NCBI RefSeq assembly: GCF_000024845.1
Contig: NC_013501.1
Span: 562,001-626,000 of the forward strand
Length of the DNA: 64,000 bases
From: Rhodothermus marinus DSM 4252
Lineage (GTDB): Bacteria; Bacteroidota; Rhodothermia; Rhodothermales; Rhodothermaceae
Direction of reading: 5' to 3'
Of the stretch, positions 17,654 to 45,479 are shown one piece after another. Position numbers and translations under genes: made by a program. Numbering within the stretch: position 1 is the stretch's first letter; each line of letters opens with the position of its first letter. A model generated the notes under the pieces. That model made no database searches and was not told the DNA's origin. It saw only the letters and a list, made by a program, of their open reading frames with translations.

Positions 17654-20600
17654 ATGCTGCATCGCCTGATTGACTTCAGCCTCCGGCAACGCTTTGTCGC
17701 GCTGAGCCTGGTGGCCCTGATGGCCTTCGGCGGGATCGTGGCCCTTGAGCGCATCCCGATCAACTCGCTTCCCGATGTTACGCCCGTTCAGGTGCTCATC
17801 ATCACCAAGGCCGGTCGCTATTCGCCGTACGATGTCGAACAACTGGTCAGTTTCCCGATCGAAACGGCCATGACCGGCCTGCCGCGGGTCAGAGAAGTGC
17901 GCTCGATCAGCCAGTTCGGTCTGTCGGCCGTCACGGTCGAGTTCGAAGAAGGCACCGACATCTACTTTGCCCGGCAGCTCGTGGCCCAGCGTCTGCAGGA
18001 CGTGCGTGAACAGCTCCCGCCTGACGTTTCATCCCCGCAACTGGGGCCGATCTCGACGGCACTCGGCGAAATCTACCAGTATGTGGTGCGGGGCGATGGC
18101 TATTCGCTCACCGAACTGCGCGAAATTCAGGACTGGATCATCGCGCCGCAGCTCCGCGCGGTACCCGGCGTGACCGAGGTCAACAGCTTTGGTGGGTTCG
18201 TCAAACAGTACGAAGTGATTGTCGATCCGGAGCAGCTCCGGGCGCTGCGGTTGAGCCTGCGCGACATCATCGACGCCATCGAACGCAACAACAGCGTCTC
18301 GGGCGGCAATTACCTGGAGCACAACCAGGAACAGTACATCATTCGCGGGTTCGGACAGATCCGCACCACGGACGACCTGGAGCGCATCGTCGTGGCACGT
18401 CGGGGCGAGCGTCCCATCTATCTGCGCGACGTGGCCACCGTACGCCTGGGACGGCAGATCCGACAGGGGGCCGTCACGCAGGACGGAAAGGGCGAGGTCG
18501 TCACCGGTATCGTCATGATGCTTCGAGGTGAGAACGGCCGCGAAGTCATCCGTCGCGTCGAAGAGAAAATTGAGGAAATCAATCCGCGTCTGCCGCCCGG
18601 GGTCCGCATCGAGAAATTCTACGACCAGTCGGACCTGATCGCGCGCACCACGGGCACAATCAAAGAAAACCTGCTGGAAGGCGGTTTTCTGGTGATTGCC
18701 GTGCTGCTGCTGTTGCTGGGCGAGATCAAGGGGGCCCTGATCGTCGCCTCGGTCATTCCGCTTTCGATGCTGTTTGCTTTTATCGGCATGCGCGCCTTCG
18801 GGCTGGCGGCCAACTTGATGAGCCTGGGGGCCATCGACTTCGGGATGATCGTGGACGGTTCGGTTGTGATGGTCGAGCATATGGTGCATCGGCTTGAAAC
18901 AGACCGAAGCGGACGCAGCCGACTGGCGCTGTTGCGTCAGGCCGCGCACGAAGTCGCCCGCCCCATGTTTTTCGGCGTGCTCATCATCCTGATGGTGTAT
19001 GTGCCGATCGCCACGTTTCGGGGTATGGAGGGCATTCTCTATCGCCCGATGGCGATTACCGTGGCGTCGGCCGTGTTCGGTTCATTGCTGCTGGCGCTGG
19101 TCTATGTGCCGGCCATCGCTACCCTGGTTTTTCGCCGGGGCGTTCGGGTGCGCCGTAACTATCTGATGGACTGGCTGCGGCCGCGTTATCGGCGCTTTCT
19201 GGAGAAAAGCCTGAATCGGCGCAAGACGACCCTGGCCGTTGCGCTCCTGGTGTTCGGCGCGGCGCTGGCGCTCTTGCCGTTTCTGGGCACGGAGTTTCTG
19301 CCGGAACTGGACGAAGGATCCATCCTGATCGAAGAAGTACGGATGCCGAGCGTCACGCTGGAGACGTCGGTGGAAAATGCCAACTGGCTGGCCGGACAGC
19401 TCATCCGCCACATCCCGGAAATTCAGACCGTCGTGCCCAAAACAGGCCGTAGCGATCTGGCCAACGACTGGATGGGCGTGCATCAGACGGACGTCTGGAT
19501 CATCCTCAAGCCACGCGATCAGTGGCGGCCAGGTATGACCAAAGAGAAAATCATCGAGCAGATCCGGCCTTTTCTCGAAACCGAGCCCGGCCTGGCTTAC
19601 AACTTCACGCAGCCCATTGCAATGCGCGTCGACGAGCTGACCTCGGGGGTCAAAAGCGATATTGCGGTCAAACTCTACGGCGAAAACCTCGACACGCTGG
19701 CGGCTGTGGCGGCGCGCATCGCCCGGTTTCTGCCCGATCTGCCCGGCACCGATAACTTCTACGTGGAAAAATTCGCCGGTCAGCCGTATCTGAACATCGA
19801 AATCGATCGCGAAGCCATTGCAGCCTTCGGCCTGAACGTCGAGGACGTGCAGCAGGTGATCGAAGCCGGATTGGGCGGCGCACCGGCCGGACAGGTCTTC
19901 GAAGGCCAGCGGCGGTTCGATATCGTCGTGCGCTTTCCCGAAGCGTACCGAAATAACTTCGAGGCCATCATGGAGGCCCCGGTTGCGTTGCCGGGGGGCG
20001 GCACCATTCCGCTACGCCGGGTGGCGCACATCCGGGCCGAAGAGGGCCCCCGCGAGATTGCTCGCGAAAACGGCTGGCGTCGGCTCGTGGTGGGCATCAA
20101 CATCAAGGACATAGACATCGGGACCTATGTGTCGAACCTGCAGCGGGCCATTGCAACGCAGGTCAAGCTGCCGCCCGGCGTCTTTCTGGAGTATGGCGGC
20201 ACGTTCGAAAATCAGCAACGCGCCATGCGCCACCTGTATGTGGCGGTTCCGCTGGCTTTGCTCATCATTATCGGGTTGCTCTATCTGATGTTCGGAGAGA
20301 TGCGCTATCCGCTGATGATTCTTTCGGTGTTGCCGCTGGCGCTGGCCGGCGGGGTGTTTGCGCTGTGGTTGCGCGGCATGTACCTGTCGATCTCGGCGGC
20401 GGTCGGTTTCATAGCCCTCTTCGGGGTGGCGGTGCTTAACGGTGTGGTGATGATCGCGCACTTGAACGCGCTGCGGCGTCAGGGGCTGTCGGTGCGTGAG
20501 GCGGTGTTGCAGGGGGCCACCGACCGGCTACGTCCGGTGTTGATGACCGCGCTGGTGGCCAGCCTGGGCTTTGTGCCCATGGCCTTCAATACAGGGCCGG

Positions 20601-20797
20601 GCTCCGAAGTGCAGCGTCCGCTGGCTACCGTGGTGATCGGTGGGCTCATTACGGCCACGCTGCTCACGCTGCGCGTGCTGCCCACCATCTACGACTGGCT
20701 CGAGCGGGACGACCGGCCCCCACGTGGCCCTGAACCGGAGTGGGAGGAAGATGGACAGATGGCGGCCCCTGTGTCGGCTGCAAATACTCGGACGTAA
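17654..20797 (+). CDS. Heavy-metal RND efflux pump (CusA/CzcA family)
   Basis: 1047 residues, the normal size of HME-type RND pumps. Twelve transmembrane segments are expected: one at the N-terminus, five in the middle (about 340-480), one near 525, and five near the C-terminus. The proton-relay helix has DFGMIVDGSVVMVEH (about 394-408), with the Asp/Asp/Glu set typical of CzcA/CusA pumps and not of drug pumps. INSLPDVTPVQV near residue 35-47 is also typical of the family. Whether it exports Cu/Ag or Zn/Co/Ni cannot be settled by eye. It starts 3 bases after the adaptor stop. Confidence 0.93.
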   Translation: MLHRLIDFSLRQRFVALSLVALMAFGGIVALERIPINSLPDVTPVQVLIITKAGRYSPYDVEQLVSFPIETAMTGLPRVREVRSISQFGLSAVTVEFEEGTDIYFARQLVAQRLQDVREQLPPDVSSPQLGPISTALGEIYQYVVRGDGYSLTELREIQDWIIAPQLRAVPGVTEVNSFGGFVKQYEVIVDPEQLRALRLSLRDIIDAIERNNSVSGGNYLEHNQEQYIIRGFGQIRTTDDLERIVVARRGERPIYLRDVATVRLGRQIRQGAVTQDGKGEVVTGIVMMLRGENGREVIRRVEEKIEEINPRLPPGVRIEKFYDQSDLIARTTGTIKENLLEGGFLVIAVLLLLLGEIKGALIVASVIPLSMLFAFIGMRAFGLAANLMSLGAIDFGMIVDGSVVMVEHMVHRLETDRSGRSRLALLRQAAHEVARPMFFGVLIILMVYVPIATFRGMEGILYRPMAITVASAVFGSLLLALVYVPAIATLVFRRGVRVRRNYLMDWLRPRYRRFLEKSLNRRKTTLAVALLVFGAALALLPFLGTEFLPELDEGSILIEEVRMPSVTLETSVENANWLAGQLIRHIPEIQTVVPKTGRSDLANDWMGVHQTDVWIILKPRDQWRPGMTKEKIIEQIRPFLETEPGLAYNFTQPIAMRVDELTSGVKSDIAVKLYGENLDTLAAVAARIARFLPDLPGTDNFYVEKFAGQPYLNIEIDREAIAAFGLNVEDVQQVIEAGLGGAPAGQVFEGQRRFDIVVRFPEAYRNNFEAIMEAPVALPGGGTIPLRRVAHIRAEEGPREIARENGWRRLVVGINIKDIDIGTYVSNLQRAIATQVKLPPGVFLEYGGTFENQQRAMRHLYVAVPLALLIIIGLLYLMFGEMRYPLMILSVLPLALAGGVFALWLRGMYLSISAAVGFIALFGVAVLNGVVMIAHLNALRRQGLSVREAVLQGATDRLRPVLMTALVASLGFVPMAFNTGPGSEVQRPLATVVIGGLITATLLTLRVLPTIYDWLERDDRPPRGPEPEWEEDGQMAAPVSAANTRT

Positions 20798-20809
20798 CCG
20801 GAACAAGTC

Positions 20810-22051
20810 ATGCTGGGTTTGCTGCTGGGATTGAGTCTGCTGCTGGGCAACCCCGACGTCGCCCCCGCCCCGGATACGCTGGGCATTCGGGAGGCACTGG
20901 CCCTGGCCTTGAGCCACCATCCACAATTGCAGGCGCTGCGCGCCCGGCGGGAAGCGCTGCAGGGACGACGGCTTCAGGCCTATGGGATCGAAACGCCACA
21001 GCTCTACTTTTTTCGCGAAGGCATCGGAAGCGGTCAGGCGTTCGCCGAGCAGGGCTGGACGCTGGTCGAGCGCATCGACTTCCCGCTGGTTACTTATTAT
21101 CGCCTGCAAGCCAACGGCCTGGAATCCCGGGCGCTGACGGCCGAACTGGAAGCCACGACCGCGCGCATCCGCGCCGACGTGAAACGCGCCTATACCGACG
21201 TGCTCTACGCGCAGGAACTGGTGCATCTCCGACAGGAAGAGGTCGCACTGCTCGAGCAACTCCGGGAGGCAGTGCGTGCGCGCGTGGCGGCCGGACTGGC
21301 AACCGATCTGGAGGTGACGCGCACCGAAATCCAGCTGGCCGACGCGCAGTCGCGGCTGGAAACCGCACGTCGCGACTTCATGCAGGCACGCTACGAACTG
21401 TTTCGGGTCGTCGGACTTGATCCGGAAGCTCAGCGCTACGACATAGTCTTTCCGGATACCCTCACCTATGTGGCCGTCGAGATTCCCCAGGAGGCGGTGC
21501 TGGCACGCCTCGACCAGTTGCCCGAACTGCACAGCCAGCAGGCGCAGCTTCAGGCAGCCCGGGCAACTGTCCGGCAGGCACGGGCTTCGTTGCTCCCTCA
21601 GCTGCAACTGGACGTCTATCCCCAGGATTACGGAAATGGGTATCGATTTGTGGGCTTTCAGATCGGGATTTCACTTCCGCTGGGGTTTTTGCCGGGATAT
21701 CGGGGACGTGTACGCGAAGCCCGCGCCCTTTATGAAAGGCGACGATGGGAGCTGGAAGACCTGCGCCTTCAACTCAAAAAACAGGCCGAGCAGGCTTGGC
21801 ATGGCTACGAGACCGCCCGCATCGTCGTCGAACGCTACGCTCGCCAGATCCGCGACCGTTCACGTGAGCTGCTGCACCGTCTGCAACGCGGCTACCGCCT
21901 GGGCGAAGTCAGCTTGATCGAGTTGCTCGACGCGCAGCGGCTTGTTCTGGAAAGCGAGCAGCGTTATTATGAGGCGCTTCGGGACTATTATCACCAGCTG
22001 ATCGAACTGGAGCGATTTCTTGGACATGAACTGACCTTCACCAACCCCTGA
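20810..22051 (+). CDS. TolC-family outer membrane efflux channel
   Basis: 413 residues with a short N-terminal signal peptide. It contains the two related alpha-helical halves of TolC/CusC proteins, with LGIREALALALSHHPQLQALRA at the beginning of the first and PELHSQQAQLQAARATVRQA opening the second. It completes the three-part efflux system, 12 bases after the pump gene, and forms the channel across the outer membrane. At about 410 residues it lacks a long C-terminal extension. Confidence 0.88.
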   Translation: MLGLLLGLSLLLGNPDVAPAPDTLGIREALALALSHHPQLQALRARREALQGRRLQAYGIETPQLYFFREGIGSGQAFAEQGWTLVERIDFPLVTYYRLQANGLESRALTAELEATTARIRADVKRAYTDVLYAQELVHLRQEEVALLEQLREAVRARVAAGLATDLEVTRTEIQLADAQSRLETARRDFMQARYELFRVVGLDPEAQRYDIVFPDTLTYVAVEIPQEAVLARLDQLPELHSQQAQLQAARATVRQARASLLPQLQLDVYPQDYGNGYRFVGFQIGISLPLGFLPGYRGRVREARALYERRRWELEDLRLQLKKQAEQAWHGYETARIVVERYARQIRDRSRELLHRLQRGYRLGEVSLIELLDAQRLVLESEQRYYEALRDYYHQLIELERFLGHELTFTNP

Positions 22052-22057
22052 GATCAC

Positions 22058-22564
22058 ATGAACGCTGCACACCTGCACCTGCTGGCGAATCATCTGCCGC
22101 TGTTTGCGGTGCTGCTGGGTCTGCTGGTCGGGCTCTACGGCGCCTGGCGGCGCGAGGAAAGCGTCGTGCGCGTGGCGCTGATGCTGTTCGTGCTGGCCGC
22201 ACTGGGCGCGGTGGCCGCGTACTTCAGCGGGCACGGCGCCGAAGAGATCGTCGAGGAGCTGGGGCGTTCGCACGATGCCATCGAGGCGCACGAAGAGACG
22301 GGCAACCTGGCCGCTTATCTGACAATCGCCCTGGGTGTGCTGTCGCTGGTGACGCTGATCCGGCGGGGACCTGTGGCGCCGGCCTGGCGCACGGCGCTGT
22401 TCGTGCTGGCGCTGGTCGTGCTGGGTGTGGTGGGCTACGCGGCCAACCTGGGCGGCCGCATCAGCCACCCGGAAATCACCGGCGCTGCGCTGCAGGAAAC
22501 GACGCGCTCCCCGGTGCCCGGACCGGAAGCGGCCGAAGAAGCTGAAGAACCCCACGAAGACTGA
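22058..22564 (+). CDS. Four-helix membrane protein of the efflux operon, function unknown
   Basis: 168 residues. Four hydrophobic helices (about 13-30, 37-56, 85-103 and 113-130) and an acidic C-terminal tail rich in Glu/Ala/Pro. Histidines cluster at the N-terminus (HLHLLANH) and in the loop with GHGAEEIVEELGRSHDAIEAHEE, a plausible metal- or haem-binding arrangement (inference). It resembles the DUF2231-like membrane proteins seen next to metal efflux systems. It begins 6 bases after the channel gene and is the last gene of the operon. Confidence 0.7.
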   Translation: MNAAHLHLLANHLPLFAVLLGLLVGLYGAWRREESVVRVALMLFVLAALGAVAAYFSGHGAEEIVEELGRSHDAIEAHEETGNLAAYLTIALGVLSLVTLIRRGPVAPAWRTALFVLALVVLGVVGYAANLGGRISHPEITGAALQETTRSPVPGPEAAEEAEEPHED

Positions 22565-22574
22565 GCGTCTGCGT

Positions 22575-23321
22575 TCATCCCTCCCGAAGCCAGTGCAGGT
22601 AGGCGGTTTCCAGAGACTCGGCGGCGGGCAGGTGGTCGCGGAAGTCGGCGAGCGATCCGGCAAAGCGCACGCGTCCCCGGTGCAGCACGACGAGGTGATC
22701 GCAGAGGCGTTCGAGTTTGTCGAGGCGGTGGGAGCTGATCAGAAGCGTGGCACCCTGGCGGTGGTGCGCATGGAGCAAGGTGATGGCTGCTTCAAGTGCC
22801 TGTGCGTCCATGGCTTCGAAGGGTTCGTCGAGCACGAGCAGCCGCGGCCGGTGCAGCAGCGCCAGCAGGAAGGCAAGCTGGCGGCGCATGCCGTGCGAAT
22901 AGGTTTCGATCCAGCGGTCGAGTGCCGTGGCGACTTCGAAAGGCGCCACCAGCGCTTCGATCGTGGCCGTCGCCTGTTCCGGTGATAGGCCGTAGAGCCG
23001 GGCGGCCAGTTCGAGCTGTTCGCGACCGGTGAGCCGCTCCATCAGCGCCAGATCTTCGAGCATGAAGCCCACCTGCTGCTTGTAGGCGTGCTTTCCCCAC
23101 CGGAGCGGTTCGCCCAGCACTGAGATCCGCCCCGCATCGGGTTTCAGCACGTTGGCCAGGATGCGAATGAGCGTGCTTTTGCCGGCGCCGTTGGGTCCCA
23201 GCAGACCACAGCATGCCCCCTCGGGCACCTGAAAGGTCACATCCTGCAGGGCCTGCACGGTACCTTTCCGGCTACGGAAGCGTCTGGAGCAGCCCTGAAC
23301 TTCCAGTGCGATCGTGCTCAT
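22575..23321 (-). CDS. ABC transporter ATP-binding protein
   Basis: 248 residues with a complete ATPase set: Walker A GPNGAGKST, Q-loop VGFMLED, signature YSHGMRRQ (a relaxed form of LSGGQ), Walker B LLVLDEPFEAMD and the switch His in SSHRLDKLE. It belongs to the ABC-2 type, as in antibiotic, bacteriocin-immunity and gliding exporters. Its ATG overlaps the stop of the upstream permease gene (ATGA), so the two are translationally coupled. It is the last gene of a four-gene cassette with two membrane proteins and a small secreted peptide. Confidence 0.92.
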   Translation of the reverse strand: MSTIALEVQGCSRRFRSRKGTVQALQDVTFQVPEGACCGLLGPNGAGKSTLIRILANVLKPDAGRISVLGEPLRWGKHAYKQQVGFMLEDLALMERLTGREQLELAARLYGLSPEQATATIEALVAPFEVATALDRWIETYSHGMRRQLAFLLALLHRPRLLVLDEPFEAMDAQALEAAITLLHAHHRQGATLLISSHRLDKLERLCDHLVVLHRGRVRFAGSLADFRDHLPAAESLETAYLHWLREG

Positions 23322-23959
23322 GAGCGCTCAACAGGCAGTTCCATCTGATCCAGCGCATGGGCTGATCGGGTAAACTTCTGACAGCCGTAGTACCAGCAGA
23401 GCACCAGCAACAACGGGGCAAGCAGGGGCTGCAGGTAGCTCAGCAGCGCAAGACCCAGCGCAAGCAACTGCGCACCGCCCCCGATGAAGCCGGCAATCAT
23501 CGGCGCCTGCATCAGCCAGCGACGGACGCCGGGGTAAACGGCGAGCCCAATGACCGGGCCACTACCAAGCGCGGTGAGCGCAAGGGCCGCCAGCCGGAGC
23601 AGATCGGCATGCCGGGATGCCGGGTGCAGGGCCGTCCAACATCCCAGCACGGCCAGTGCCAGCAGCCCCTGCTGATGCAACAGCACACGACTTTTACGGC
23701 GAAGCACTTCGGCCAGGTCGACGCCCCAGAGCCGGTAGCAGAGCCACTCCCGATCGTCGATGAACCATTCGAAAAACGGCGCAATCAGCATCATGCCGCT
23801 CCCGATGGCATACAGCAGCCGGAGCGTGCCGTGCGCTTCCAGCGCGTGGCGCCCGAGCTGTCGAAGCAGCAGCGCCATCAGAGCCAAGGCAAGAAAAGCA
23901 GCCCACCAGAACCGATGGCGGCGGTGCAGACGAAACAGCAGGCGGTGCACCGAATGCAT
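23318..23959 (-). CDS. ABC cassette membrane protein B
   Basis: 213 residues, with five or six hydrophobic helices and no enzyme motif. The N-terminus is basic (RLLFRLHRRHRFWW) before the first helix. It starts 3 bases downstream of membrane protein A and overlaps the ATPase gene by 4 bases. It is probably one half of the ABC-2 permease or an accessory membrane subunit. I do not recognise a named family. Confidence 0.75.
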   Translation of the reverse strand: MHSVHRLLFRLHRRHRFWWAAFLALALMALLLRQLGRHALEAHGTLRLLYAIGSGMMLIAPFFEWFIDDREWLCYRLWGVDLAEVLRRKSRVLLHQQGLLALAVLGCWTALHPASRHADLLRLAALALTALGSGPVIGLAVYPGVRRWLMQAPMIAGFIGGGAQLLALGLALLSYLQPLLAPLLLVLCWYYGCQKFTRSAHALDQMELPVERS

Positions 23960-23962
23960 GGC

Positions 23963-24721
23963 TCATCCCCGACTGGCCCACCAGCCGATCAGCAGCGCGG
24001 CGGCCGTGTGCCCCAGCAGCCACAGCGTCGGCGCAAGCGCAGGCGCTCCACTCAGCACGGCCGCCATGGCTTCGCCGTAAGGTCCCAGCAACGGCACGTA
24101 GCGATACAGTGCGAGCAGCCAGGCCACAAACGCCCGAACGGCCGGGATCAGGTTGGCCGCGATGTTCGGCAGCACAAGCAACCAGACCATGACAGGAATG
24201 AGTGCAACCAGCTCGCGACGTCCCTGAAGACGGGGACTCCATCGGTACCATGCGGCAAAAAGCAACGCCAGCAGCCCTGCCACCGCCGGTAGCGTCAGTC
24301 CCACCGCGGCCAGTGCTTGCATCGGCGGGAAGAATGCCAGCAACCCGACGGCCAGCCCCAGCAGATAGAGGCCGGAGAGCATCAGCAAGCCGGGCTCCAG
24401 GGCAAAAAAGGCCAGCGCATGAGCCGACATGCGGGGCGAGCGAAACAGCACGTTCGGGTGCCAGTCGGTTCGCCGTGAAAGCCGCACCACAGGATATAAA
24501 AGCAGCAGGAAACCGTACAGCAGAATGGAAAACGTGTAGGTGGCCGCATTGCCGGTGTTCCGAGGGTTCAGGTGCTGAAACAGCGGCAGCATGAAGCCCT
24601 GCAGCCAGCAAACGATCCCCAGCGACGCGACAAGCGCCCAGAACCCAAGCAGCGACCAGCCTCGACCGATCAGCCGGTAATTGAGCCGGAGCCAGAAACC
24701 TGAGGAATTTAAACGATACAC
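23963..24721 (-). CDS. ABC cassette membrane protein A (probable permease)
   Basis: About 252 residues from a GTG at 24721. The start is uncertain: the frame is open to an ATG at 24787, but that would run through most of the end of the small peptide gene, which has better coding character. Six hydrophobic segments are visible (for example GFWALVASLGIVCWL and LVALIPVMVWLLVLPNIAANL). The chosen start overlaps the peptide stop by 13 bases, suggesting translational coupling. It is probably the permease paired with the ATPase encoded at the end of the cassette. Confidence 0.7.
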   Translation of the reverse strand: MYRLNSSGFWLRLNYRLIGRGWSLLGFWALVASLGIVCWLQGFMLPLFQHLNPRNTGNAATYTFSILLYGFLLLLYPVVRLSRRTDWHPNVLFRSPRMSAHALAFFALEPGLLMLSGLYLLGLAVGLLAFFPPMQALAAVGLTLPAVAGLLALLFAAWYRWSPRLQGRRELVALIPVMVWLLVLPNIAANLIPAVRAFVAWLLALYRYVPLLGPYGEAMAAVLSGAPALAPTLWLLGHTAAALLIGWWASRG

Positions 24722-24990
24722 CCTAATGCAAGAGATACGCCAACCGCGGTGGGACCAAAAATAGCATTGCTCAAATATAGTGTCCATCCTACGAATCCCG
24801 CAGGTGTAGCAAAAAGTCCTAAGAGGAAAGTAGCCGTACCAAGGATTGCTATACCACATTCCAGCCAGGACAAGTCTGGGTCCTGTGGTTCCGGCATGTC
24901 CTGAGCCCATGCAGTTAAAGGACTTAGCAGTAAATATAACGTAACGTAGCTCAGCGTGGCTCGAAGAAAAATATGTATCCGGTTCATCAT
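24709..24990 (-). CDS. Small secreted hydrophobic peptide precursor, candidate bacteriocin-like product
   Basis: 93 residues from tandem ATGs at 24990/24987. A Sec-type signal (about 1-29) ends in LTAWA before QDMPEP. The predicted mature part of some 63 residues has an acidic, proline-containing head (DMPEPQDPDLSWLE) and two hydrophobic Gly-rich stretches bounded by two cysteines, one at the start (CGIAILGTATFLLGLF) and one two residues before the end (ALGCIV). The DNA is clearly less GC-rich than its neighbours. It heads a cassette of two membrane proteins and an ABC ATPase. No family is recognised; a membrane-active peptide with a dedicated exporter or immunity pump is inference. A small anchored membrane protein is the main alternative. 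Confidence 0.55.
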   Translation of the reverse strand: MMNRIHIFLRATLSYVTLYLLLSPLTAWAQDMPEPQDPDLSWLECGIAILGTATFLLGLFATPAGFVGWTLYLSNAIFGPTAVGVSLALGCIV

Positions 24991-25159
24991 TTTGTTATGA
25001 GCAACTGAATTCGGATCGCTTCTAAATCTGGCCTTTATGGCATCCTGAAACGTTTCCCGGCATTGGAGCATTCCAGAAGTTATAGAGGGCGCATTGGACG
25101 AGGCGCGTGGTGGAACTTTACGGCACGGCGTCCGGAGTTTCTGACAGAAAAGCAGGTCT

Positions 25160-25699
25160 ATGGCGATCGTCACTGTTCCCAGGGTGTTGCGTGAGAAGCT
25201 TGGCGAGGAAGGGGCCGAAGCGCTTGTCGTGCTCCTCAACGAAGCGCTCCATCACGAACGCAATAACCTGTTGGGCATCCTGGAAGAGCGCTTTGAGCGA
25301 CGCGTGACAGACGAAGGTAAACGTCTGGACAACCTGATCACCGAGGTGGAGGCCCGGTTGAACGAGCGGATTACCGAGGTAGAGGCCCGGTTGAACGAAC
25401 GGATCACCGAGGTGGAGGCCCGGTTGAACGAGCGGATTACCGAGGTAGAGGCCCGGTTGAACGAACGGATCACCGAGGTGGAGGCCCGGTTGAACGAGCG
25501 GATCACCGAGGTAGAGGCCAGACTGAATGAGAGAATCACCTCGGTCGAAGCAAAGCTTGAAAAGCAAATCGCTGAGGTTGAGGCGCGTCTCGGGGAGCGG
25601 TTGGCAGGTGTTCGGGCCGATCTGATCCGGTGGATGTTTCTGTTCTGGGTGGGACAGATCGGCACGTTCGTCGCTCTGTTGTTTGCGTTTCTCAGGTAA
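25160..25699 (+). CDS. Coiled-coil membrane-anchored protein with hendecad repeats
   Basis: 179 residues. The N-terminal 45 residues are globular (VTVPRVLREKLGEEGAEALV), followed by about 90 residues of an 11-residue repeat with consensus ITEVEARLNER, which should form a continuous hendecad coiled coil. It ends in one transmembrane helix (WMFLFWVGQIGTFVALLFAF). This is the layout of the LA_3696/DUF1640-like family, small coiled-coil proteins anchored by their C-terminus and related in shape to the mitochondrial CCDC90 proteins. The function is unknown. The repeats are nearly identical at DNA level. The next gene is the metal ATPase, 21 bases on. Confidence 0.8.
   Translation: MAIVTVPRVLREKLGEEGAEALVVLLNEALHHERNNLLGILEERFERRVTDEGKRLDNLITEVEARLNERITEVEARLNERITEVEARLNERITEVEARLNERITEVEARLNERITEVEARLNERITSVEAKLEKQIAEVEARLGERLAGVRADLIRWMFLFWVGQIGTFVALLFAFLR
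25337..25600 (+). repeat. 33-bp in-frame tandem repeat, about eight units
   Basis: Units start at 25337 and every 33 bases after. The first five are nearly identical; units 6 to 8 are degenerate. Units 1, 3 and 5 share ATCACCGAGGTGG, while 2 and 4 share ATTACCGAGGTAG, so the array has a 66-bp higher-order period. Each unit encodes 11 residues. Confidence 0.9.
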
Positions 25700-25720
25700 A
25701 AAATAGGCAGTGTTTTTTTG

Positions 25721-28057
<2,337 letters not shown>

Positions 28058-29047
28058 TCATCTGTGGGCAAGTGCAGCGGGAGGGAGCAGCCGGCGAAAC
28101 AGGCCGGAAGGGCCGGCCAGGTAGAGCCAGTTTCCCCGGCGATCCAGGCGTGTGATCGGCTCGTCGGGCAGAGCGAGGCTGGCTGGCGAAAGCGGCCGGG
28201 CCAGGTCGTATTCCATCACGCGCAGCTCCCGGAGACCCCCGTGCGTATCGAAATGCGGCAGTTCGCGTAGCCAGACGAGTCCATCGTCCGTGGCCAGCAG
28301 GTAGCCGGACTCCGGCAGGTCCACCACGTCGTGGATGCGGTTGCCCGGGTGGCCGAGGTAGGCAAATTCGACGGGGTGATCTACTTCGTCGACCGGAAAG
28401 AAGCTCACGGCCTCGCTCATGATCACCCAGAGCCCCTCAGGCAATGCAACGAGCCGTTCGACGATGTTGTCGGGCAAACCGTGGTTGGCCGTGCCTTCTT
28501 CCGAATAGACCAGCCAGCCGTCGGATGTCTGTCGGAACAGGCCGATACCGGTTCCCACCCATACGGTGCCGTCGGTCGTGGTGGCCAGCGCGTACACCGG
28601 CGCAGCGGCCAGCACCGGTCGCCAGCTCGTGTCGGCGCGCAGGAAGACGCCATGCTGCGCGGTACCAACCCAGAGACGCTGCTGTGCGTCCAGTGTCAGG
28701 GTGGTCACCGAAGGGAAACGATTCAGCGCCGGAAGCGGAACGCGTTCAGGTTGGGCCGTCGGTGCCGTTAGCCGCACCAGACCCGCCCCGGTGCCCAGCC
28801 AGAGGACGCCTTCCGGATCGACGACCCCGCCCTGCACAGCCGCGGGCAGTATCCAGCGATGGATCGGGCGCTTGTCGCGCAGCCACCATAGCACCTTGCC
28901 TCCGCCCAGCAGCCAGCCGTCGTACCAGGGGAGCAGTACGGTGGGCGGCTCGGGAAGCGATGCGGGCAGCGTGACCGTGACGGGTTGCGTCGTGCGGCAC
29001 CCGGCCACCACCAGCAGCACCATCCAGAGGAGCGCGCGGGGCGTCAT
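28058..29047 (-). CDS. Beta-propeller lipoprotein
   Basis: 329 residues. Lipobox VVAGC in MTPRALLWMVLLVVAGC. Repeated blades of the two-component-regulator-propeller kind are visible: GVLWLGTGAGLVRL, QRLWVGTAQHGVFL, GTVWVGTGIGLFRQ and GLWVIMSEAVSFF. It is probably an envelope protein sensing or binding a ligand. It stands alone, with no kinase fused or adjacent. Its stop abuts the stop of the P-type ATPase gene. Confidence 0.8.
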   Translation of the reverse strand: MTPRALLWMVLLVVAGCRTTQPVTVTLPASLPEPPTVLLPWYDGWLLGGGKVLWWLRDKRPIHRWILPAAVQGGVVDPEGVLWLGTGAGLVRLTAPTAQPERVPLPALNRFPSVTTLTLDAQQRLWVGTAQHGVFLRADTSWRPVLAAAPVYALATTTDGTVWVGTGIGLFRQTSDGWLVYSEEGTANHGLPDNIVERLVALPEGLWVIMSEAVSFFPVDEVDHPVEFAYLGHPGNRIHDVVDLPESGYLLATDDGLVWLRELPHFDTHGGLRELRVMEYDLARPLSPASLALPDEPITRLDRRGNWLYLAGPSGLFRRLLPPAALAHR

Positions 29048-43676: not shown

Positions 43677-44771
43677 TTAGGTGGTGGCGGCTTCTTCGTC
43701 GGTGAAGATGTCGCCCTCGACAGCCGCGTTTTCCAGGGCGGGCGTGCGCAGCAGCTCGATGCGGTGCAGCGCCGAGTAGTACCAGGGCCGTTCGGGGAGG
43801 CGGTGGGTGGGCAGCCATTCCCAGGAGCGCATCGATTCGATGTAGCCCCAGTTGACGTAGGCGCTGAAATCATCGATCAGATCGGTGAGCACGACGCCGC
43901 TGTCGAGCAAGAAGCGCTGGATCTGCGCCCATTTCTCGTAGCTCGACTCCACGTGCGTCAGCCCGAAGTAGCCCGCGCATCCCGGGCCGCGCAGTGCCAG
44001 CAGCCCGCGCTCGATCGTCGTTTTGAAGCCCAGAAAACTTTCGGTCGGGTCGGTCATGAACGTGTCGAACTTCCGAAGCCACGAAGTGGGAAGTGGTTCG
44101 CGCAGATCGTAGCGAACGGCTTCGAGACGGTCGAGCCCCTCGCGCCGGGCCACGTCGTTGATGAACTGAATCAGCCGGTCGTCGATGTCAACGGCCAGTA
44201 CGTAGGCCGGTGCGCCGGTCAGCGCCGCAGCGATGCTCATCAGGTCGTCGTCGCCCAGTACGAGAAGTTGCTTGCCCTCCAGATCGCCCCGGTGCCAGGC
44301 GAACGCAATGCGTGCAAGGGTGGTCGCTTCAGTGACGAAGCCCTGGTCGTAGTCCTGAATGGCCTCGGGGCGGTGCCGACAAATTTCCGCAAAGCGCTCG
44401 ACCACGTCCTCGGGGAGCGTGCGGTAATCGACGCTCCGGCCCTCGCAATGCACACAGGTGGCCTCGCGGACGGGGGCCACGCCCAGTGCCTGGGCCAGCG
44501 CCTGGCCGCTTTCGGTCAGGCGCAGCGCGCCATCATGCGCCTCCAGCAGACCCTCGGCAATCAGCCGATGCCAGAAGGCACTGAGCACCCGCAACGGCAC
44601 GCGGCTCAGTCGGATCGCTTCCCACAGGTTGTCGGTGGTCAGCAGTGCCGCCAGTGCCCGTTCGGCGTCGCGCTCGGTGAAGGGCACCGGCATCTGCTGA
44701 CGGACCGTTTCCAGCAGACGATCCCGCAGTTCGACCGCTGAGGTTTCCGGGAAGGTTTTCGTATGTGGCAT
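43677..44771 (-). CDS. bpsA: Branched-chain polyamine synthase, N4-bis(aminopropyl)spermidine synthase
   Basis: 364 residues. Adds aminopropyl groups from decarboxylated S-adenosylmethionine to spermidine, making quaternary branched polyamines that stabilise nucleic acids at high temperature. An N-terminal winged-helix-like region (about 10-100) is followed by a CxxC (CVHC) and a Rossmann-type domain with the family motif LVLGDDDLMSIAAALTG (about 169-185), then AVDIDDRLIQFIND and TDPTESFLGFKT. The arrangement is that of the DUF43/BpsA family of Thermococcus and Thermus. It is followed by a terminator-like hairpin and the KaiC-like gene. Confidence 0.92.
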   Translation of the reverse strand: MPHTKTFPETSAVELRDRLLETVRQQMPVPFTERDAERALAALLTTDNLWEAIRLSRVPLRVLSAFWHRLIAEGLLEAHDGALRLTESGQALAQALGVAPVREATCVHCEGRSVDYRTLPEDVVERFAEICRHRPEAIQDYDQGFVTEATTLARIAFAWHRGDLEGKQLLVLGDDDLMSIAAALTGAPAYVLAVDIDDRLIQFINDVARREGLDRLEAVRYDLREPLPTSWLRKFDTFMTDPTESFLGFKTTIERGLLALRGPGCAGYFGLTHVESSYEKWAQIQRFLLDSGVVLTDLIDDFSAYVNWGYIESMRSWEWLPTHRLPERPWYYSALHRIELLRTPALENAAVEGDIFTDEEAATT

Positions 44772-44954
44772 AACGCAGACCGGTTGTTTCGAGGGTACGC
44801 GAAAACGAATGTCTTAAAGTAAGGATGGCAAGAAAGCCATGATCGACAGGAGAACTTGTAACTTACGGACCTTCAGCGCCTGAAACAACCGACTGTATGA
44901 CCATATTTTGCATACGAGGCGAATTTTTCCGAAAAAGTGGATTGCGGACAGACT

Positions 44955-45479
44955 TTTCCGGGCGCGCCCGATTCACGAGATATGGTCGTCGGCATCGATA
45001 GCCGCCGGTACACCTCCGACCAGGCCACCATCTGGCGATGGCGCTGGGCATTTCAGCACGATTTCGCCGCCCGTATGGACTGGACGATCAAAAGCTTCGA
45101 GGAGGCCAACCACAACCCGATCGTGGTGGTGAACGGCCGGGAAGGAAAAGCGCCGCTCTGGATGAAGGCACGGGTGGGGCAGCCGCTTGTGCTGGACGCC
45201 ACCGGCACGCGCGATCCGGACGGCGATGCGCTGACCTACACCTGGTTCGTGTACCCCGAAGCGCAGACGGGGCGGGCATTTCGACCGGCCGCCCGGCTCG
45301 AAGGCGATCGTATCGTGCCGCTTCCGCCGCGGGCCACGCTGATCGGGGAGCATTCGCCCCGCGTGACCGTCATCCCGAATCTTCCCGGCGAGACGCACCT
45401 CATCCTGGCCGTCGAGGACGACGGCACGCCAGGCCTGACCGCCTATCGCCGGGTGATTCTGGACGTGCAACCGGAGTAG
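44955..45479 (+). pseudogene. C-terminal remnant of a DUF1593 (Sde182-type) protein
   Basis: The readable part is about 165 residues starting near DMVVGIDSRRYTSDQATIWR, then FAARMDWTIKSFEEANHNP and a C-terminal Ig-like domain (LDATGTRDPDGDALTYTWF). Full-length family members are about 450-500 residues, with an N-terminal nucleoside-hydrolase-like domain. Nothing of that domain is found upstream, where bpsA begins on the other strand. I see no start codon with a ribosome site or signal peptide. It looks like the surviving tail of a deleted gene that probably encoded a secreted carbohydrate-binding or -acting protein. Confidence 0.75.

Follow-up and report, generated by a model that had tools for sequence, protein, structure and literature searches.

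What does a small gene for a hydrophobic, two-cysteine peptide do when it directly precedes the genes of what appears to be an ATP-binding cassette (ABC) transporter? We addressed this question for a four-gene cassette of the thermophilic marine bacterium Rhodothermus marinus DSM 4252, located at 22575-24990 on the minus strand of a 64,000-nucleotide stretch of DNA (the window). This stretch sits on a contig of 3,261,604 bases, and the whole two-contig genome comprises 3,386,737 bases. The gene order is peptide, membrane protein A, membrane protein B, ABC ATPase. The explanation that we favor, tentatively and at somewhat less than an even chance, is a secreted peptide with its self-protection unit, in which the peptide would be a membrane-active toxin and A, B, and the ATPase would form an immunity exporter. 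The four genes are as follows.

24709..24990, minus strand: peptide precursor gene, 93 residues (signal at about residues 1-29, judged by eye; mature part of 64 residues)
23963..24721, minus strand: membrane protein A (P0002), 252 residues, GTG start, probable permease subunit
23318..23959, minus strand: membrane protein B (P0003), 213 residues, probable second permease subunit
22575..23321, minus strand: ABC-type ATPase (P0004), 248 residues, with PF00005, Walker A GPNGAGKS, and Walker B LLVLDEP

An earlier note on this DNA had described the four-gene layout, two overlaps, and a 93-residue two-cysteine precursor, and all of these were borne out by the coordinates read on the minus strand: the peptide gene and A overlap by 13 bases (24709-24721), B and the ATPase gene overlap by 4 bases (23318-23321), and 3 bases lie between A and B. 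In all four loci in which both genes are readable, A starts with an ATG or GTG that overlaps the TGT encoding the last cysteine of the peptide, and this fixed overlap is good evidence for a single translated unit. A scan for promoters and terminators gave one promoter-like match, inside the peptide gene, and Rfam at gathering scores gave no match in 22000-26000.

The cassette was compared among seven Rhodothermus genomes (G000, which is DSM 4252, and G001 to G006). The peptide gene is real and not a chance reading frame, because it lies in the same place in four of the seven (G000, G001, G003, and G004; intact in three) and is under purifying selection, with ratios of nonsynonymous to synonymous divergence (dN/dS) of 0.28, 0.19, and 0.29 across the three pairs of intact copies (G000, G003, and G004), values that are rough in the two pairs with dS of 1.5 and 2.1 (dS is 0.45 for G003-G004). 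A search of 60 relatives recovered the peptide nearly complete from G003 and G004 and in part from G001, in each case directly preceding A. Judged by eye, the precursor has a basic-hydrophobic N terminus followed by a cleavage-like site between A-x-A and Gln. The two cysteines lie at positions 16 and 62 of the mature part (precursor Cys45 and Cys91), and the 47-residue core that they bound contains 8 glycines, with a grand average of hydropathy of 1.45; the peptide has two hydrophobic maxima, near precursor residues 53 and 85. Both cysteines were kept in 4/4 copies, including the frame-broken copy of G001, in which A-x-A then Gln and a GW..YL.NA...P block were also kept. The inter-cysteine core was the best-conserved segment in all three pairs, with 62 to 69% identity between G000 and G003 or G004, compared to 41 to 52% for the signal and 27 to 33% for the mature N terminus. 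A Sec-type signal, a variable mature N-terminal segment joined to a conserved core, and a linked transporter would also suit a secreted signal or surface peptide (pheromone-like) that is sensed or cleared by the ABC unit and involves no killing. We regard this as rather improbable, since no receptor, kinase, or regulator is found among the four genes or those adjoining them (a propeller-repeat protein at 28058-29047 is the closest that is regulator-like) and diffusible signals are seldom so hydrophobic.

The ATPase carries ABC_tran (PF00005; expectation value [E] 2.3e-27, 96.7 bits versus a cut-off of 25), and the Walker A, Walker B, and signature motifs were kept in 6/6 aligned full-length ATPases. 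Its closest relatives of solved structure by sequence were lipid-transporting ABCA proteins, a generic resemblance. The peptide, A, and B fell below every family cut-off in Pfam, NCBIfam, PHROGs, and PADLOC; profile searches thus upheld the view that these three match no named class. For the peptide, Pfam returned COX1 alone, below cut-off (E 0.0027, 17.1 bits versus 34.8), NCBIfam returned no match, a sequence search of the PDB gave nothing at E ≤ 10, and a structure model of low confidence (mean predicted local distance difference test [pLDDT] score, 61.5) had no Foldseek match at E ≤ 0.001. The best Pfam E values were 0.3 over five members of A and 0.092 over six members of B (DUF1516, below cut-off), neither of them for an ABC permease, and no NCBIfam family matched A or B at E ≤ 1. 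A had no PDB match by sequence at E ≤ 1, and its model, all-helical and of low confidence (mean pLDDT, 49.3), had no Foldseek match at E ≤ 0.001 (best E, 0.27). A relation between A and B was not detectable (hhalign probability, 0.6%). The predicted structures of A and of the peptide are too uncertain for a claim about fold or mechanism. A and B are probably the permease subunits of the ABC unit.

Intact peptide and transporter genes occur together in G000, G003, and G004. In G001, the transporter is intact and the peptide loses its frame at a run of T; in G005, the transporter is intact and the peptide is absent, a conserved upstream element being followed by about 70 bases and then by A with its own start. 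In G002, the nearest of the compared genomes (about 94% DNA identity in the flanks), the peptide gene, A, B, and the 5' part of the ATPase gene are deleted, leaving an ATPase remnant that corresponds to query residues 69-247. The cassette of G006 is unreadable, as the contig stops inside A. An ATPase or remnant was present at the cassette site in 7/7 genomes. As a separate observation, two genes lie between the ATPase remnant and a DUF2231-like gene in G002 (locus L037, 7286-7788), one for a ParE-type toxin and, upstream of it, a small one without a family match. Loss of the cassette genes was one-sided: the transporter was found twice without an intact peptide (G005 and G001), and an intact peptide without the transporter was never seen in the seven genomes. 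This neighborhood comparison confirmed the tight linkage of the peptide with the ABC genes, and one-sided loss is what would be expected of a toxin with an immunity function. The peptide may instead be a small two-span subunit or activator of an ABC transporter for a lipid, lipoprotein, or drug, lying in the inner membrane with its cysteines in the periplasm, which we consider unlikely, though it deserves weight. Its two hydrophobic maxima, its anionic character (see below), the purifying selection, the overlap with A in 4/4 readable loci, and the generic ABCA resemblance of the ATPase would all suit such a role, whereas a transporter that is intact without the peptide (G005) or with a broken peptide frame (G001) hardly points to a needed subunit, and the N terminus resembles, by eye, a cleavable signal and not a plain anchor.

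Between G000 and G004, dN was 0.41 for the peptide, 0.21 for A, 0.23 for B, and 0.11 for the ATPase, compared to 0.03 to 0.16 for flanking genes; the peptide, A, and B thus change faster in protein than the flanking genes, and the ATPase does not. Along the branch leading to G005 after the divergence from G000 (outgroup G004), synonymous and nonsynonymous changes numbered 5 and 1 in the ATPase, 7 and 8 in A, and 8 and 7 in B. Judged from these substitution counts, the ATPase is constrained on the G005 branch and A and B are weakly constrained on both branches, which is no proof that the transporter works alone, as the G005 branch also spans time before the loss of the peptide.

On the favored explanation, the precursor would be exported by Sec and cleaved after A-x-A, yielding a peptide of 63-64 residues (6.5-6.6 kDa) whose two cysteines, near either end of a hydrophobic hairpin-like core, would probably form a periplasmic disulfide that closes the core. 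This peptide would enter the membranes of competing close relatives and damage them. The ATPase, A, and B would assemble into a small exporter that draws the peptide from the inner membrane of the producer, thereby conferring immunity and perhaps also aiding release. The one-sided loss, the linkage, and the purifying selection fit this pairing of a membrane-active secreted peptide and a protective exporter. Several observations weigh against it. A dispensable accessory peptide, that is, one dispensable to a transporter with another substrate, would give the same loss pattern; only 7 genomes were compared, and the assemblies of G001 and G005 are drafts (of 8 and 230 contigs), in which the broken or missing peptide may be an assembly error. 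The mature peptide of G000 has a net charge of about -5 and no Lys or Arg, and that of G003 has about -3 (G004, near neutral). Bacteriocins are typically cationic, according to an excerpt of PMC7616364, so the anionic mature peptide of G000 without Lys or Arg would be unusual for one. An ABC permease identity was not recovered for A by profile and fold searches or for B by profile searches. The coding strand of A and B contains 5 terminator-like patterns versus 2.8 expected, so that a single transcript is not assured, and the cassette holds no gene for processing, modification, or outer membrane export.

The low G+C content of the peptide gene had been read in the earlier note as a sign of transfer. 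Two further features lie at or beside the peptide gene.

24653..25214, no strand assigned: AT-rich valley over the peptide gene and the intergenic region, from G+C windows
25006..25026, minus strand: 21-base conserved element upstream of the peptide gene, TTTAGAAGCGATCCGAATTCA, from cross-genome conservation

The peptide gene is indeed less GC-rich than its surroundings (46.5% versus 65.3% for the window), and the valley also takes in the intergenic region. Just 0.16% of all 282-base windows reach a G+C content as low as that of the peptide gene. At window sizes of 282, 300, and 500 bases, the minimum across the 64 kb starts each time at 24678-24757. The sole other stretch of the window with a 282-base G+C content of 50% or less is at 44676-45002. 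Transfer from outside was not borne out: the cassette occupies one syntenic site in the genus and the peptide genes of G003 and G004 have a G+C content of 56%, and foreign import was rejected on these grounds. The 21-base element was kept in G000, G001, G003, G004, and G005, with one base differing in the copy of G002, and had a single match in its own genome at up to 3 mismatches. It lies 15 bases upstream of the peptide start in G000 and 94-97 bases upstream of it in G004 and G003. Because genomes that lack the peptide retain the element too, its role may be with the transporter or with the divergent-side genes.

Exchange within the genus is suggested by the divergence between G000 and G005. 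Values of dS in the cassette were 0.13 (0.08-0.19) for A, 0.23 (0.16-0.32) for B, and 0.15 (0.10-0.21) for the ATPase, compared to 0.31 (0.26-0.36) for the flanking P-type ATPase, 0.57 for the DUF2231-like gene, 0.80 for the TolC-like gene, and 0.56 for the resistance-nodulation-division (RND) gene (brackets, 95% bootstrap ranges, which overlap for B versus the P-type ATPase alone). Because cassette dS (0.13-0.23) is below that of the flanks (0.31-0.80), the sequence comparison suggests that the cassette was exchanged between Rhodothermus lineages, although codon-bias differences among genes could add to the contrast. Divergence of the P-type ATPase is lower than that of the other flank, so exchange may have reached past the cassette. 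For G003-G004, dS was 0.35 (0.27-0.46) for A, 0.77 (0.56-1.04) for B, 0.61 (0.48-0.80) for the ATPase, and 1.12 for the P-type ATPase, and DNA identity was 83 to 88% in windows centered in A and 72 to 80% in B. The peptide dS of this pair (0.45) does not assign the peptide to the group of A or to that of B and the ATPase, and the idea that the peptide moved with A was dropped, its bootstrap range (0.27-0.69) being too wide.

As far as the searched collections reach, the cassette appears to be confined to Rhodothermus. Outside the genus, no relative of the peptide, A, or B was found in 394 genomes of the phylum (searches that apparently did not include G005 and G006, which are absent from the matched rows for A and B) and no relative of A in 244 genomes of the class. 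The peptide matched 10/60 and 10/394 genomes, in each case four Rhodothermus and six others at E 0.003-0.1; the 12 non-Rhodothermus matches, at unread loci, were taken as chance given their weak scores and frames of at least 139 residues. A matched 6/60, 5/394, and 7/244 genomes, all Rhodothermus save G358, which was left out after inspection of the locus (3 internal stops); a second weak place in G003 (E 0.0024) was left out too. B matched 4/394 genomes. A search of a contig collection with A gave two loci, both Rhodothermus, viral contigs held no relative of the peptide, and the one match in a plasmid search (E 0.8, inside a beta-galactosidase) was taken as chance. The ATPase matched 7/238 genomes at E ≤ 1e-55 and, in the order, 15/78 at E ≤ 1e-40, with E ≤ 3.8e-111 in the genus and 8.9e-45 at the next place; L061, the one non-genus place read of 12 at E ≤ 1e-40, holds an unrelated ATPase with a long permease.

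The surroundings of the cassette (17654-28057) form a metal-efflux neighborhood, with a CusA/CzcA-type RND operon and a cadmium-family P-type ATPase, that is kept in most of the genus. The cassette lies between these two, and the P-type ATPase adjoins it in 5/5 genomes with that side on the contig and adjoins the remnant in G002, which would be consistent with a cassette that belongs with the heavy-metal efflux genes and acts on metal or on envelope parts damaged by metal. We hold this to be quite improbable: the cassette is convergent to the RND operon and divergent from the P-type ATPase, the 5.7 kb read downstream of it in G003 revealed no RND, TolC-like, or DUF2231-like gene, the peptide has just two cysteines, 46 residues apart, and G002 keeps the RND, TolC-like, and P-type ATPase genes though most of its cassette is gone. 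On the divergent side, a gene at 25160-25699 (plus strand) encodes a 179-residue coiled-coil protein with a C-terminal hydrophobic stretch and contains a 33-base tandem repeat array (25336-25540, 6.2 copies). Beside the cassette, this gene was not found in G001, G003, and G005, encodes 124 residues in G004, and is present in G002 and G006.

A further-reaching proposal, which we think doubtful as a whole, is that the cassette represents a new class of peptide toxin of Gram-negative thermophiles, namely, a Sec-exported, anionic to neutral, disulfide-ringed hairpin with a two-permease ABC immunity exporter, so far confined to Rhodothermus and exchanged among its lineages by homologous recombination. 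Among the papers listed in literature searches on bacteriocins, antimicrobial peptides, and gene clusters of Rhodothermus, none, judged from the listings, reported this locus or a peptide-antagonism system of the genus; in the excerpt of one Rhodothermus match (PMC8657885), the connection is a structure template. The general idea of such a peptide is not new, since class II bacteriocins have been predicted in Gram-negative phyla including Bacteroidota by work whose described tool handles Sec-dependent leaders (PMC12648078, 2025, in excerpt), and the present family may be among them. Nor is antagonism in the wider lineage new as such, since a bacteriocin cluster is annotated in the related genus Salinibacter (PMC6060240, in excerpt). 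If the favored explanation is correct, the cassette would be a peptide-antagonism system of Rhodothermus, with a thermophile membrane peptide possibly closed by a terminal disulfide; if the peptide is a transporter accessory instead, it would still be a new small-protein partner of an ABC unit. In either case, three of the cassette proteins (peptide, A, and B) are without a family at cut-off, in a small locus of a type strain with a published complete genome.

How does the cassette compare with known systems? LanFEG consists of two unlike small membrane proteins and one short ATPase, and the cassette likewise has two unlike small membrane proteins and a short ATPase. Membership was nevertheless rejected, as the ATPase scored 127.8 bits against the lantibiotic-protection model TIGR03740 (cut-off, 309.75) and A and B lacked NCBIfam matches at E ≤ 1; no lanthionine enzyme was detected by NCBIfam among the four genes. 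Of the bacteriocin-type locus proposed in the earlier note, the linkage of a secreted two-cysteine peptide with an ABC unit stands, and the one-sided loss fits self-protection; its likeness to LanFEG and to circular-peptide loci did not extend to membership. The Pfam and NCBIfam libraries include a lactococcin-972 model, and the precursor was set apart from that family, as it gave sub-threshold COX1 alone in Pfam and nothing in NCBIfam. Lactococcin 972 clusters comprise lclA, lclB, and an ABC transporter gene, so that a small precursor, a multi-span membrane protein, and an ABC gene are clustered in a similar way (PMC11161930, in excerpt); the cassette differs in having two membrane proteins and in the lack of family matches for the peptide, A, and B. 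Bacteroidetocins, also cysteine-bearing peptides of Bacteroidetes and known toxins, have a 15-16-residue double-glycine leader and, in founding members, four cysteines, and their loci encode an ABC transporter/peptidase and mostly a thiol oxidoreductase (PMC6671954, as far as excerpted). The cassette has no double-glycine leader, peptidase, or oxidoreductase, and membership was rejected on the Sec-type N terminus with A-x-A (by eye) and on an ATPase without a peptidase domain.

The SDP peptide contains a disulfide. In Bacillus, the ABC efflux unit YknWXYZ protects the producer against this peptide toxin (PMC4887032, in excerpt), a layout of peptide and protective ABC unit to which the cassette would be alike. 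No relation in sequence was found. YknZ carries a MacB-like extracellular domain (same excerpt), and by inspection A and B look too short to hold one. The accessory ABC operons as-48EFGH and cclEGHI raise production of, and immunity to, the circular bacteriocins AS-48 and carnocyclin A (PMC6131525, in excerpt), again pairing a hydrophobic peptide with an ABC complex that raises immunity, the function that the cassette transporter would have. The cassette peptide differs in its Sec-type signal and two cysteines, and a disulfide-closed core would parallel the head-to-tail ring of the circular peptides. SpoIIM/DUF95 (PF01944), a marker of circular bacteriocins, had no match among the cassette proteins in Pfam and NCBIfam (including members of A and B), and this, together with a peptide without a family match, set the cassette apart from the circular bacteriocins. 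Claiming membership in neither system, we suggest by analogy that, on the favored explanation, the cassette would work like the ABC operons of AS-48 and carnocyclin A or like YknWXYZ.

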